Part shown: positions 28,862 to 34,128 of the stretch, in pieces | How positions within the stretch are numbered: position 1 is the stretch's first letter | How the letters are laid out: each line of letters begins with the position of its first letter | Source of the DNA: Halopolyspora algeriensis | GTDB taxonomy: Bacteria; Actinomycetota; Actinomycetes; Mycobacteriales; Pseudonocardiaceae | NCBI RefSeq assembly: GCF_003337235.1 | Contig: NZ_QPJC01000002.1 | Location: 248,001-312,000, forward strand | Reading direction: 5' to 3' | DNA: 64,000 nt | The notes under the pieces: model-generated | Seen by the model: only the letters and a program-made list of their open reading frames with translations | Databases searched by the model: none | Told to the model about the DNA's origin: nothing | Translations under genes and position numbers: made by a program

Positions 28862-29263
28862 TCAGCCGATGGCGTGCAGCAGGGTCTGGCAGGTGTCGGC
28901 GCAGCGCCGGCACTCCTCGGCGCAGATCCGGCAGTGCTCGTGCATGCTCGCGTGCTGGTGGCACTCGCTGCCGCAACTGGTGCAGGCCTGGATGCATGCC
29001 TGCAGCTGCGCGCGGGTGATGTTGGCGTCGTAGCCGGTGTGGCGGGACAGCACACGGGCGGTCGTGTCGCAGATGTCGGCGCAGTCGAGGTTGCTGCGCA
29101 CACACTTGCGCAACTGGTCCACCGACTGCTCGCTCAGGCACGCGTCCGCACAAGCGGTGCAGGTCTGGGCACATTGCAGCGTTGCCTGCACCGCGTCGGC
29201 GAGCAGACCCCGATCCAGGTTGATCGTGGCCGGGTAGCTGTCCATCATCTCTCGAACGGGCAT
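28862..29263 (-). CDS. Cys-rich four-helix copper-storage-like protein (DUF326/Csp family)
   Basis: 133 aa with about 18 Cys spaced along helices: CAQTCTACADACLSE, KCVRSNLDCADIC, LQACIQACTSCGSECHQH and HCRICAEECRRCADTC. The CxxxC-type spacing down a four-helix bundle is the Csp/DUF326 pattern, where Cys residues lining the core bind many Cu(I) ions. No export signal, so it is a cytosolic Csp3-like form. ATG 29263 follows AGGAGGA. It may buffer copper, which would otherwise damage the nearby Fe-S/Mo enzyme, but that link is inferred from position. Confidence 0.88.
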   Translation of the reverse strand: MPVREMMDSYPATINLDRGLLADAVQATLQCAQTCTACADACLSEQSVDQLRKCVRSNLDCADICDTTARVLSRHTGYDANITRAQLQACIQACTSCGSECHQHASMHEHCRICAEECRRCADTCQTLLHAIG

Positions 29264-30455: not shown

Positions 30456-31367
30456 TCACCCCCGCTCGTGGTGCAGCTCCACGAGTCGATGCTCGGACGG
30501 GACGGACGGCTGGTCGGCGTGGCAGGTCAGCCTGCGTTCGGGGTGAGAGGGAACCGAGCGCAGGCGCACCCGGTAGTGACCCCCGTCCGGGGCGGTGAAC
30601 GTCGCCTCGACCTCGTCGCCCTCCCGACGGGAGGAGATCAGCGGCAACTCGTCGACACCGCAGATCTCGGTCTCCTGCCGCAACAGGCACTCGGCGGCCT
30701 GCGTGGCGAAACCGTAGGCAGTGCGCCCCCGTAAATACCTGGTGTCGAGCTCGCCTCGCGCATAGGCCTCGGCGAGCGGGACGGCATCGTCGGAAGGAAC
30801 CCGCCCGAAGTAGAACCCGTGCGGCAACGCGAGGAGGTTGCCCGCGAACCGATCCCCGCCGATGTGCGAGACCTCCCAGGTCTGTTCCGGAAAGTGCTTG
30901 CTGAGCGCTTCGGCCACGGGTCGGCCCTGCTCGGCGCAGCAGGGATCGTGCCGTCCGTGGGTGCAGACGAAGTACAGCGGGTCCGGCACGGGCTGCAGCC
31001 CGGGGCGATCCCCGCGGGCCAGCCCCTCCAGGTCGAGGTCGAAGACGTCGGCGGGACCGTCGAGCACGGCCTGCTCCACCCAGCCTTCACCGAGGCCGGT
31101 GCGGGCGAGGAAGCAGTGCCGTTGCCCGGAACCCTGGCCCTGGCGCCGTACCCGCCGGATGAGTACCACGCGCAGCCGCAGTCTGCGGCAGATCTCGTGC
31201 AACCTCGTCGACACGTCCGCATCGAGTCGGCTGTCGCGCAGCGCGTCCACCCCCCACGGCCCTGGTTCTTCGAGCAGCACCCAGCCGCGGACCGTGGAGG
31301 CGGTGCCGTGCAACGGTTCGTGCAGGGAGCGGCTGCGCGTCTGGCAGCGTGCCCGCGCTTCACCCAT
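30456..31367 (-). CDS. Sucrase/ferredoxin-like family protein (thioredoxin-like [2Fe-2S])
   Basis: 303 aa from ATG 31367 (GAGGT six bases upstream). It overlaps the end of the JmjC gene by eight bases, so expression is coupled. The cluster region reads YFVCTHGRHDPCCAEQGRPV with Cys ligands; the typical family segment VSHIGGDRFAGNLLALPHG follows. The name comes from the Suc/Fer-like domain; the fold is a thioredoxin-like [2Fe-2S] ferredoxin. It plausibly supplies electrons or Fe-S redox function to the neighbouring oxygenase. The longer frame upstream belongs to the next gene's region. Confidence 0.82.
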   Translation of the reverse strand: MGEARARCQTRSRSLHEPLHGTASTVRGWVLLEEPGPWGVDALRDSRLDADVSTRLHEICRRLRLRVVLIRRVRRQGQGSGQRHCFLARTGLGEGWVEQAVLDGPADVFDLDLEGLARGDRPGLQPVPDPLYFVCTHGRHDPCCAEQGRPVAEALSKHFPEQTWEVSHIGGDRFAGNLLALPHGFYFGRVPSDDAVPLAEAYARGELDTRYLRGRTAYGFATQAAECLLRQETEICGVDELPLISSRREGDEVEATFTAPDGGHYRVRLRSVPSHPERRLTCHADQPSVPSEHRLVELHHERG

Positions 31368-32580
31368 CCGTGACCTCGAGCAACCCCTCTCGGACGAGCC
31401 GCCGCAGGAGAACGAGACGGCTGGCAGGATCCAGGTGCGACGCGAGATCGCGGGCGGTGAGAGTGCTCCCGGCGGCGATCTCGCGCATCGCCGGTTCGAC
31501 CCAGCCGGGCACGCGCAACTCCCGGTCGCCGAGCAACACCCGCACCGGATCGGTGCCGCCGGAGCGGATCTCGCACACCGCACCCGGGCGCCGGCGCAGC
31601 CGGGTGTCGTCGTCCAGCGTGGCCAGGCGCATGCGGTCGACCAGCCCACCGTGCAGCAACGAGGGGCGGCCGGTGAGGAAGCGGTCGGCGAGATCGTCGG
31701 TGACGTCGCGGGCGTCCAGCTTCTCCAGCCGCGTGCCCAGTTCCTCGAGCCGTTCGCCGAGCTGTGTGGCCAGCGCTTCGGTGTCGCGGTGGAACCCCAC
31801 CGGTAGTGGGGCCTCCAGCGCCGGGTCGTCGAGGAGCTGGGTGAGTGCCCGTTCCAGCACCTGCCGCCACCGCGTCGGGTGGATGCCGACCGTGAGGTGC
31901 CCGGACAGGGTGTGCTGCGTTCGCGCGGCGTGCCGAGTGCCGGTCGGCAGGTAGACGGCGGTTCCCGGCACCAGCTCGACGTTGTCGGCCGCGTGCTCGT
32001 CGGCGGTGCCGTCCTCGTCGGGGCCTTCCCCCGTGTTGCCGCTCCCGCCGTGCTCGGCCGGGGCCGGCCAGATCTGCCAGGTCTTGCGCCCGAACGCCTG
32101 CAGCACGAACACGTCGTGGGTGTCGCTGTGCGGATGGAAGCCCTGCGAACCCGGTGGAGTGAGATAGGCGTTGACCTGGCACGAGTGGCCGAGGGCGAGC
32201 TCCAGCGACCGGCAGAAGCGGGTCAGGGGCGGCCAGTAGCGCTGCAGCCCCTGCAGCACGAGGGTCGCTCCCTGTTCCACGGCGCTGAACACCCGGGCCG
32301 GATCGGCGATGCCGCTCATCGGCGCGTTGCCGATCCGGGCCGACTGCGTGTACTCCGAGGACGGAAGGACCCGGCCTTCCCGCACGAGCCGGAAAGCCGG
32401 GGTGCGCAAGCCGTATCCCGACAGCAGCCGGTCGACGTCGTCGAGGCCGAGCAGGTCCTCGAATCCGTCCGGCGTCGGGCCGTGCACCATGACCCGTCTG
32501 CCCCACACCTGCTCGGCGAAACGGTCGGGGTCACCGACGCAGCGCCGCAGGGATTCGGTGTCCACGTCCGGTGCCGTCAC
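31360..32580 (-). CDS. JmjC/cupin-type Fe(II)/2-oxoglutarate oxygenase
   Basis: 406 aa from GTG 32580, overlapping the stop of the repeat peptide gene (GTGA). The double-stranded beta-helix carries the metal motif FHPHSDTHDVFVLQ (HxD) and a distal His in LSGHLTVGIHPTRW, with KTWQIW between. The C-terminal 150 residues form a helical/winged-helix region, as in ribosomal oxygenases of the YcfD/ROXA type. Such enzymes hydroxylate a protein side chain using O2 and 2-oxoglutarate. The tight coupling to an Asp-rich repetitive peptide makes that peptide a candidate substrate; this is inference. A ribosomal protein is the alternative. Confidence 0.85.
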   Translation of the reverse strand: MTAPDVDTESLRRCVGDPDRFAEQVWGRRVMVHGPTPDGFEDLLGLDDVDRLLSGYGLRTPAFRLVREGRVLPSSEYTQSARIGNAPMSGIADPARVFSAVEQGATLVLQGLQRYWPPLTRFCRSLELALGHSCQVNAYLTPPGSQGFHPHSDTHDVFVLQAFGRKTWQIWPAPAEHGGSGNTGEGPDEDGTADEHAADNVELVPGTAVYLPTGTRHAARTQHTLSGHLTVGIHPTRWRQVLERALTQLLDDPALEAPLPVGFHRDTEALATQLGERLEELGTRLEKLDARDVTDDLADRFLTGRPSLLHGGLVDRMRLATLDDDTRLRRRPGAVCEIRSGGTDPVRVLLGDRELRVPGWVEPAMREIAAGSTLTARDLASHLDPASRLVLLRRLVREGLLEVTDG

Positions 32581-32777
32581 GAGTCCCGCGAGTCGCTGTC
32601 GGAGTCCTGGGTGTCGGCGTCGTCGGACTGATCGGTGCCGTCGGCGTCCTGCGTGTCGGCGTCGTCGGACTGGTCGGCGTCCTGCGTGTCGGCGTCCTTG
32701 GTGCGGGCGGCGATTCCGCCTGCGCCCACGGTTTCCATGTCCTCGTCGCGCAGCGGGCGGTTCGGGTCCTGCTCCAT
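32577..32777 (-). CDS. Asp-rich repetitive small peptide, possible oxygenase substrate
   Basis: 66 aa from ATG 32777 (GGAGG five bases upstream; GTG 32789 is an alternative). The first half, MEQDPNRPLRDEDMETVGAG followed by GIAAR, is leader-like. The second half is built from DADTQD (three times) and DQSD (twice), ending DSDSDSRDS. There is no Cys, no aromatic residue and no signal peptide. It overlaps the JmjC oxygenase gene by four bases. The leader plus repeated acidic core layout resembles a RiPP-style precursor, but no cyclase, protease or exporter is adjacent. Not a family I recognise. Confidence 0.6.
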   Translation of the reverse strand: MEQDPNRPLRDEDMETVGAGGIAARTKDADTQDADQSDDADTQDADGTDQSDDADTQDSDSDSRDS

Positions 32778-33087
32778 GGTGGCCTCCACATTCTCGAGCG
32801 CTCGTGCATTTCTCGCCGGTGCGGGAGTTTTCCACGCCTCTTCTCGCCCTGCCGCCCGGAAAGCGAGGCAGCGGCACAGTACTGCCCACCCGGGTGAATC
32901 CGGCTCCCGCGACGGTGGTTCTCATGGTCGCCGAGGCGTGGTGCGGCCGCCCTGCGCTGCCGGTGGCACATTCGTCGTCTCGGGCGCGATGAGTTTTCAC
33001 CGCCGACGTTGTCGATATCGGCGAGGCGGTCCACGCGGGCGCCTCGATGACCTACAGTTGGTTTTTCGGGTGGGAGGGGTGAGGAGC

Positions 33088-34128
33088 ATGGCCACGGTCA
33101 GCAAGCCGGCCGGCACCGACAAGCCGGTCAGCACGGGCAGCCCGGTCGACGGGGATTTCCTGCGAATGGCCGACCCGTATCGGCGCGAGTTGCTCGCGCA
33201 CTGCTACCGCATGCTCGGCTCGGTGCACGACGCCGAAGACCTGGTGCAGGAGACCTACCTGCGCGCGTGGCGCTCCTACGACCGCTTCGAGGGACGATCC
33301 TCCCTGCGCACCTGGCTCTACCGGATCGCGACCCGCACTTGCCTGACCGCGCTGGAAAGCCGCGGGCGGCGTCCACTGCCCACCGGCCTCGGCGGGCCCG
33401 GTTCCGACGCCGCCGACGACCTGGTGCAGCAGCCGGAGACGCCGTGGCTGGAGCCCATCCCCGACGGCATGGTCGATGACGAGCGCACCGACCCCGCCGC
33501 GATCGTGACCTCGCGCGAGAGCATGCGGCTGGCCCTGATCGCCGCCATGCAGCACCTACCGCCCCGGCAGCGTGCCGTGCTGATCCTGCGCGACGTGCTG
33601 CAGTGGCGGGCCGCCGAGGTCGCCGAAGCATTGGACACCTCGACCCCCGCCGTCAACAGCATCCTGCAGCGCGCCCGGGCCCAGCTCGAACAGGCCGCGC
33701 CGAAACCCGAGGAGGTCGTCGAACCGGCCGGCTCGGAGCAGCGTGCTCTGCTCGACCGCTACGTCGCGGCTTTCGAGGACAAGGACGTCAGCGCCATCGT
33801 GGAGCTGTTCACCTCCGATGCCGTCTGGGAGATGCCGCCGTTCACGGGCTGGTACCGCACACCGGAGAACATCGGTCGCCTCATCGACACGCAATGCCCC
33901 GCCGGGCCGGGTGATATGCGACTGGTGGCCACCGAGGCCAACGGCCAGCCCGCCTTCGGGGTGTACATGCGCGGCGACGACGGGGTGTATCGGCCGTTTC
34001 ACCTGCAGGTGCTCACGCTGACCGCCGCGGGCGTGGCCCATGTCGCCGCGTTCTTCGACCACCGCCTGTTCGCCACGTTCGGCTTGCCGGAAACCGCCCC
34101 CGACCGGCCGCTGCGGCCGGCGCACTGA
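33088..34128 (+). CDS. ECF RNA polymerase sigma factor with C-terminal SnoaL-like domain (SigX5/SigG type)
   Basis: 346 aa. Sigma region 2 is DPYRRELLAHCYRMLGSVHD with AEDLVQETYLRAWRSYDRFE; region 4 is HLPPRQRAVLILRDVLQWRA with EVAEALDTSTPAVNSILQRA. Residues 220-340 form a SnoaL/NTF2-like domain (RYVAAFEDKDVSAIVELFTS, FTGWYRTPENIG). This fits the ECF group in which the fused domain replaces an anti-sigma factor and tunes activity. ATG 33088 follows GAGGAG. The downstream TIGR03086 gene is its usual companion. Confidence 0.9.
   Translation: MATVSKPAGTDKPVSTGSPVDGDFLRMADPYRRELLAHCYRMLGSVHDAEDLVQETYLRAWRSYDRFEGRSSLRTWLYRIATRTCLTALESRGRRPLPTGLGGPGSDAADDLVQQPETPWLEPIPDGMVDDERTDPAAIVTSRESMRLALIAAMQHLPPRQRAVLILRDVLQWRAAEVAEALDTSTPAVNSILQRARAQLEQAAPKPEEVVEPAGSEQRALLDRYVAAFEDKDVSAIVELFTSDAVWEMPPFTGWYRTPENIGRLIDTQCPAGPGDMRLVATEANGQPAFGVYMRGDDGVYRPFHLQVLTLTAAGVAHVAAFFDHRLFATFGLPETAPDRPLRPAH

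Follow-up and report, generated by a model that had tools for sequence, protein, structure and literature searches.

A conserved cassette of an aspartate-repeat peptide, a JmjC oxygenase and a Suc_Fer-like protein: a candidate ribosomal peptide-modification system

Introduction

The window analysed here, a stretch of 64,000 nucleotides from Halopolyspora algeriensis (contig NZ_QPJC01000002.1, positions 248,001 to 312,000), holds on its minus strand a short gene for a peptide with many repeated aspartates, which runs directly into the gene of a JmjC-type oxygenase and from there into that of a Suc_Fer-like protein. The locus raises the question of what the oxygenase acts upon, and whether the peptide is its substrate. 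The first-pass annotation, made from the letters alone, had read the gene order as precursor, modifying enzyme and redox partner, an architecture that the conservation of the cassette strongly supports. We consider it probable that the cassette encodes a system like those of ribosomally synthesized and post-translationally modified peptides (RiPPs), in which a winged helix of the oxygenase binds the leader of the peptide, the JmjC domain hydroxylates aspartates of its core, probably at C-beta, and the Suc_Fer-like protein supports the reaction.

Results

The cassette and its conservation

The features of the cassette in the window are as follows.

32577..32777, minus strand: Asp-repeat precursor-like peptide gene, 66 aa (translation; equivalent upstream open reading frame in 102/103 relatives; purifying selection in frame)
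32783..32787, minus strand: GGAGG ribosome-binding site of the peptide gene (sequence; GGAGG-like sites before the ATG in most homologs)
32730..32753, minus strand: leader motif LRDEDMET (LxDDDM/IxT across the family), presumably the sequence recognized (kept across clades while the core varies)
32580..32696, minus strand: core of Asp repeats (DADTQD x3, DQSD x2), the part presumed to be modified (Asp in every core; tandem repeats at the DNA level)
31360..32580, minus strand: JmjC_2 (PF08007) Fe(II)/2-oxoglutarate oxygenase, 406 aa, GTG start (Pfam; conserved residues; AlphaFold2 model)
31363..31611, minus strand: C-terminal winged-helix domain of the oxygenase (AlphaFold2 model of the domain alone; structural matches to winged helices and RiPP recognition elements)
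30456..31367, minus strand: Suc_Fer-like (PF06999) thioredoxin-fold [2Fe-2S] protein, 303 aa, presumed redox partner (Pfam; adjacency; motifs)

Translation of the peptide gene gives MEQDPNRPLRDEDMETVGAGGIAARTKDADTQDADQSDDADTQDADGTDQSDDADTQDSDSDSRDS, in which LRDEDMET closes the front part near residue 27 and an acidic, repetitive part follows, in accordance with the leader-like half and acidic repeats first described for it. The GGAGG lies 5 nt ahead of the ATG. The overlaps between the three genes are likewise borne out: the stop codon of the peptide and the GTG start of the oxygenase (32580) share the 4 nt GTGA, and the Suc_Fer-like gene runs from an ATG at 31367, which lies 8 nt within the oxygenase gene, to 30456. 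The Pfam matches of the oxygenase (JmjC_2, PF08007, 8e-21) and of its neighbour (Suc_Fer-like, PF06999, 3e-17) both pass the curated cut-offs, confirming the identities proposed for the two proteins, while searches of NCBIfam, Pfam and PHROGs returned nothing useful for assigning the peptide to a family. The cassette JmjC gene is the single PF08007 gene in this genome.

To place the cassette among its relatives, genomes were searched at three ranks, the class (395), the phylum (396) and the family (150). The oxygenase gene is patchily distributed, with 53/396 phylum genomes matching at E<=1e-60. The first ten relatives found in public genomes came from Halosaccharopolyspora, Nocardioides, an unclassified actinomycete, and Nitriliruptorales and Acidimicrobiia assemblies, and all ten carried, directly upstream, a short open reading frame (ORF) whose product combines a similar leader with an Asp-rich repeat. 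Upstream ORFs were then counted at loci with sufficient upstream sequence and banded by the bit score of the JmjC protein. A D-rich upstream ORF was present at 58/58 loci scoring 400-700 bits, 44/45 at 255-400, 17/20 at 200-255 and 6/12 at 130-200, and in the same bands, from high to low, an adjacent Suc_Fer gene was found at 56/58, 36/45, 13/19 and 1/12. Above 255 bits, 102/103 JmjC genes have an Asp-rich short ORF upstream compared with 25/404 other genes from the same loci at the same threshold, and the best-scoring upstream ORFs of these control genes showed neither leader nor repeats. The association of peptide and oxygenase is far more than chance. Related oxygenases that lack the peptide, which would have spoken against a precursor role, are rare (1/103 above 255 bits). 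When the neighbours of ~70 loci were clustered, the sole gene that recurred across distant clades was Suc_Fer, and the remaining repeated neighbours reflect synteny within lineages, one example being a large regulator-like protein that five Nocardioides loci share.

A translated peptide with a constant leader and a changing core

Codon changes were counted across 17 ortholog pairs of the peptide. The annotated frame holds 320 synonymous to 137 non-synonymous changes, compared with ratios of 48:414 and 36:431 in the two alternative frames, and the third codon position accounts for 382/536 base differences. Between the window peptide and that of its relative L002, codon changes are mostly non-synonymous, so the strongest coding signal comes from other clades. 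GGAGG-like sites precede most homolog starts. The pattern of substitution shows, indirectly, that the peptide gene is translated.

The peptides range from 33 to 163 residues (the shortest being cut by a contig end) and carry 6 to 37 Asp. Two repeat types dominate, one DADGTDGD-like with Asp spacings of 2 and 3, the other GADGG/EGPADGG..HDGGADG-like with a spacing of 4, and the cores, which are tandem repeats also at the DNA level, switch between DADTQD, DADGTDGD and GADGG/EGPADGG. The leader LxDDDM/IxT is retained across both types. That leader and Asp density persist while the repeats vary indicates that selection acts on the leader and on many spaced aspartates, and the earlier expectation that homologous loci would keep the leader while repeat number changes holds for repeat sequence as well. 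No residue other than Asp occurs in all cores of the two main clades, and Asp is for this reason the likeliest target of modification. The rest of the cores consists of Gly, Ala, Thr and Ser, with almost no aromatics, Lys or Cys; clade A cores contain no Cys and no Phe. His is missing from 89% of clade A cores and present in many clade B cores, and Thr is missing from 34% of clade B cores. The family shows the features by which RiPPs are recognized, namely a short encoded precursor, a conserved leader, a variable core and an adjoining modifying enzyme. Two loci, L107 and L109, have unusual core repeats (ADGTDQGVxGGTYGPRDA; GAGDAAGDGAGD) and no adjacent Suc_Fer.

A ribosomal-oxygenase fold with a winged helix resembling RiPP recognition elements

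The HxD...H iron triad and the 2-oxoglutarate Lys are present in 122/122 oxygenase sequences. The AlphaFold2 model of the oxygenase (predicted local distance difference test score, pLDDT, 87) has NO66 as its best structural match (Z 27.3 over 374 residues at 23% identity, whole length), followed by MINA53 (Z 24.7) and YcfD (Z 19-20), and sequence profiles concur. With PF08007 above its cut-off, the HxD...H motif, the Lys and the JmjC fold, the enzyme belongs with the JmjC_2, or ribosomal-oxygenase-type, proteins. We count its likeness to NO66 and MINA53 in favour of the proposed chemistry because those enzymes hydroxylate protein side chains.

The C-terminal 88 residues, modelled alone, gave a pLDDT of 90.5. 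The first structural matches of this isolated domain are the winged helices of MINA53, NO66 and YcfD, and the next are mostly RiPP recognition elements (RREs): McbB (Z 8.1), TigE (7.2), PbtF (7.0) and MccB (7.0), then TbiB1 (6.9), PqqD (6.8), ThcOx (6.8) and a cyanobactin heterocyclase (6.0). A few unrelated enzymes (Rv2067c, GdmN, PKMT1) also appear in the match list. An hhalign comparison of the winged helix with the ArsR-type winged helix HTH_20 was not significant.

A change in the peptide is matched by a change in this domain. In one clade the peptides start MSEQNLEGPADGG and lack the leader motif, and in a tree built from the catalytic part of the oxygenase only, these 15 rows group together as a single clade with a Shimodaira-Hasegawa-like approximate likelihood ratio test (SH-aLRT) support of 99. 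When the profile was built from clade A sequences only, the C-terminal domain scored 0 in the leaderless clade and 20 to 48 in its leader-bearing sisters, except L047, L060 and L071, of which L071 has a degenerate leader and an intermediate domain. Scores from a wider profile were also computed and are biased towards leader-bearing rows; leader labels were assigned by pattern, with ~15 rows corrected by eye. In the alignment, LPGLDxxDxVVLVRRLLREGV has shrunk to LGxDLARRLVLAG in the leaderless clade. This joint loss suggests that the winged helix reads the leader. Two members of the leaderless clade, L070 and L075, have an upstream acidic peptide, DDPELxGADLxEDQxxGxGPTxEPGA, with no repeats and no Suc_Fer.

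The Suc_Fer-like protein

The thioredoxin-like ferredoxin Aim32 carries a CX8C..HX3H motif (PMC8482512). The cassette proteins have in common with Apd1/Aim32 the PF06999 match and the CX8C, which place them among Suc_Fer-like proteins, and differ in the HX3H half of the bis-histidinyl motif, whose second His is an Asp in 81/82 members (HX3D) and is replaced to give HX3E in the remaining one. The window protein (30456-31367) and its 82 homologs have five invariant Cys. Judging from these residues, the Fe-S ligand set of the cassette proteins may differ from that of Aim32. A phmmer search against the PDB found no solved structure related to Suc_Fer. At one locus (L008:4845-5642), a second Suc_Fer paralog with an intact HX3H lies just upstream of the peptide.

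Neighbouring genes

Divergent from the cassette in the window is an extracytoplasmic function (ECF) sigma factor with a C-terminal SnoaL-like domain (33088-34128, plus strand); no sigma-factor cluster recurs at other cassette loci. Further along the minus strand (28862-29263) lies a small Cys-rich protein with a DUF326 match, which we take to resemble copper-storage four-helix proteins. A consensus scan for promoters and terminators found none, as expected for such a scan of a high-GC genome.

Discussion

Relation to known systems

The cassette enzyme has in common with NO66, MINA53 and YcfD the full-length fold, the HxD...H iron site, the 2-oxoglutarate Lys and the C-terminal winged helix. 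It differs in sequence (~23% identity when aligned by structure) and in being tied to an Asp-repeat peptide and Suc_Fer instead of ribosomal proteins. JmjC hydroxylases of RiPPs are already known: BipG and PbsQ, of the biphenomycin type, act on ornithine made from Arg (PMC12707348, PMC12257519). There, as here, the JmjC enzyme is encoded beside a precursor peptide; their cores, however, are non-repetitive and their clusters large, with a multinuclear non-heme iron-dependent oxidative enzyme (MNIO), a B12 radical S-adenosylmethionine enzyme and a protease, whereas here a three-gene cassette accompanies an Asp core. Bregman et al. (2025) mention briefly that RRE folds occur in fusion with PF08007 and that bacterial RRE-JmjC homologs are found in RiPP-like contexts (PMC12710340); with these the cassette enzyme shares the beta3-alpha3 winged-helix fold fused to PF08007; the passage concerned names no precursor, class or partner. 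Hydroxylation of Asp in RiPPs is also on record. In a graspetide cluster, SmaO converts peptidyl Asp to beta-hydroxyaspartate and SmaX converts beta-hydroxy-Asp to aminomalonate (as reported in a passage of PMC13097080), and PesHI, an MNIO, hydroxylates Asp at the beta position in nitrilobacillins (PMC13060819). As far as these accounts describe them, the SmaO and PesHI systems have few sites, near the peptide ends, in contrast to the tens of Asp in tandem repeats and the JmjC enzyme found here. A search of the literature, whose coverage leaves out most subscription journals, found no published description of this class, and the core repeat strings occur in full text in one unrelated paper only. 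The cassette apparently defines a RiPP-like class not described before, marked by an Asp-repeat core.

More distant relatives show related arrangements. A Streptomyces clavuligerus plasmid (L179:3769-7116 and beyond) encodes a 48-aa peptide with leader LEPDEIEV and a core in which DxDPxDP occurs twice, followed by JmjC, S9 peptidase and ABC transporter genes; from its gene content this locus is likely a RiPP cluster, related but of a different type. At L094-L096, L099 and L100, short peptides like MDPIEVEVEDLAEVTSRDITAGGDSDGTDSSSDFI, for which NCBIfam gave no match, are encoded upstream of JmjC genes that are distant relatives, and a prolyl-oligopeptidase-like gene is found close by. In Dolichospermum a JmjC relative (L181:2439-4924) has an upstream precursor-like peptide with a Gly-Gly site, and in Pseudanabaena another (L180) lies near a LanM gene. 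By gene neighbourhood, the association of JmjC enzymes with RiPPs looks to extend outside actinobacteria, to cyanobacteria.

A proposed pathway and the points against it

We propose that a short precursor is synthesized on the ribosome, its acidic leader (LxDDDM/IxT) conserved and its core built of Asp repeats, that the RRE-like winged helix at the C-terminus of the oxygenase would bind the leader, and that the JmjC domain would move along the repeats, hydroxylating Asp side chains with Fe(II), O2 and 2-oxoglutarate. By analogy with PF08007 enzymes and with the Asp beta-hydroxylation reported in RiPPs (PMC13060819 and the passage of PMC13097080), the most likely position is C-beta. The Suc_Fer-like protein would probably keep the iron reduced or act as electron donor. 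Such a pathway would yield a peptide with a high content of beta-hydroxyaspartate, plausibly a ligand of Ca2+ or Fe3+ and possibly retained in the cell.

Several results weigh against this proposal. Ribosomal oxygenases share the winged-helix fold from which the RRE is claimed, and comparison of the domain with PqqD (PF05402) gave no Pfam match and an hhalign probability of 0.6%. Since no sequence link to PqqD was found, the RRE is claimed by fold only; for the modelled domain, the missing similarity lowers the likelihood of RRE membership without excluding it, as many known RREs are without it. The joint disappearance of leader and winged helix amounts to a single event in evolution and therefore speaks well, though not independently, for leader recognition by the winged helix. 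Suc_Fer is absent in L028, L034, L042, L051, L107, L109 and others despite an intact peptide and JmjC gene; it is therefore not strictly needed and probably supports rather than performs the reaction. The clustered neighbours included no conserved protease, exporter, immunity gene or regulator within 4-6 kb. For that reason, the cassette genes do not support a classic secreted natural product, though leader removal and export could be housekeeping functions.

Alternative explanations

The simplest objection is that the short ORF is no gene, only a low-complexity by-product upstream of the oxygenase, since high-GC DNA with short repeats readily yields long open frames. Its presence at 102/103 loci, its ribosome-binding site and its conserved leader argue otherwise, and with a synonymous to non-synonymous ratio of 320:137 compared with about 1:10 in the other frames, we rejected this idea and give it next to no chance. 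It is also quite improbable that the enzyme is a NO66/YcfD-like oxygenase working on a ribosomal protein, with the acidic peptide as regulator, mimic or chaperone instead of substrate. The full-length fold match to NO66, MINA53 and YcfD, winged helix included, would suit such a role, as would its being the sole PF08007 protein of the genome. Ribosomal substrates, however, need no adjoining variable peptide, and here the repeats change freely at steady Asp density while the leader is conserved in the manner of a recognition tag; nor is a gene found in 53/396 phylum genomes at the strict threshold distributed like one for ribosome maintenance.

The remaining alternatives accept the peptide as partner of the oxygenase and differ in the chemistry or the product. 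A leader-guided oxygenase might carry out another reaction: it could, for example, oxidize Thr, Ser, Gly or His in the repeats, introduce a desaturation or a cross-link, or hydroxylate the peptide ahead of a cleavage. Peptide-acting 2-oxoglutarate enzymes perform several reactions, SmaX is reported to convert beta-hydroxy-Asp further to aminomalonate (in the same passage of PMC13097080), and the cores abound in Gly, Ala, Ser and Thr, with His in many of clade B. We nevertheless judge a different chemistry unlikely, in view of the cores that lack His (clade A) or Thr (clade B) when all have Asp, and of the PF08007 relatives of known activity, which are hydroxylases (of His, Arg and Orn). Possible, though not what we would expect, is that the peptide acts at full length as an intracellular acidic protein binding Ca2+ or other metals, with hydroxylation tuning its affinity and its level tied to oxygen and iron supply. 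This would fit the lack of a conserved protease, exporter or immunity gene and the Fe-S nature of the partner, and the core spacing D-x-D-x-x-D presumably resembles acidic metal-binding loops; against it stand the separate leader and RRE-like domain, the usual mark of leader-dependent processing, and the S9 peptidase and ABC transporter genes of the Streptomyces relatives. A more specific suggestion, tentative and rather doubtful, is that an RRE-guided JmjC enzyme makes a poly-(beta-hydroxyaspartyl) polymer of variable length that serves as an intracellular metal buffer or as an oxygen- or iron-responsive ligand in actinobacteria; this would be a kind of biopolymer with no earlier description.

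Implications

If leader-guided aspartate hydroxylation is indeed the chemistry of the cassette, it would represent a widespread, apparently undescribed class of ribosomal peptides made by a minimal pathway of three genes, and the repertoire of bacterial JmjC enzymes would grow to include the hydroxylation of aspartate at multiple sites. It would also link the winged helix of the ribosomal oxygenases to leader recognition in RiPPs, suggesting a shared origin. Siderophores use hydroxyaspartate as an Fe(III) ligand, and the residue is also present in Ca-binding epidermal growth factor (EGF) domains; for this reason the repeat polymer could be a new metal-handling material.

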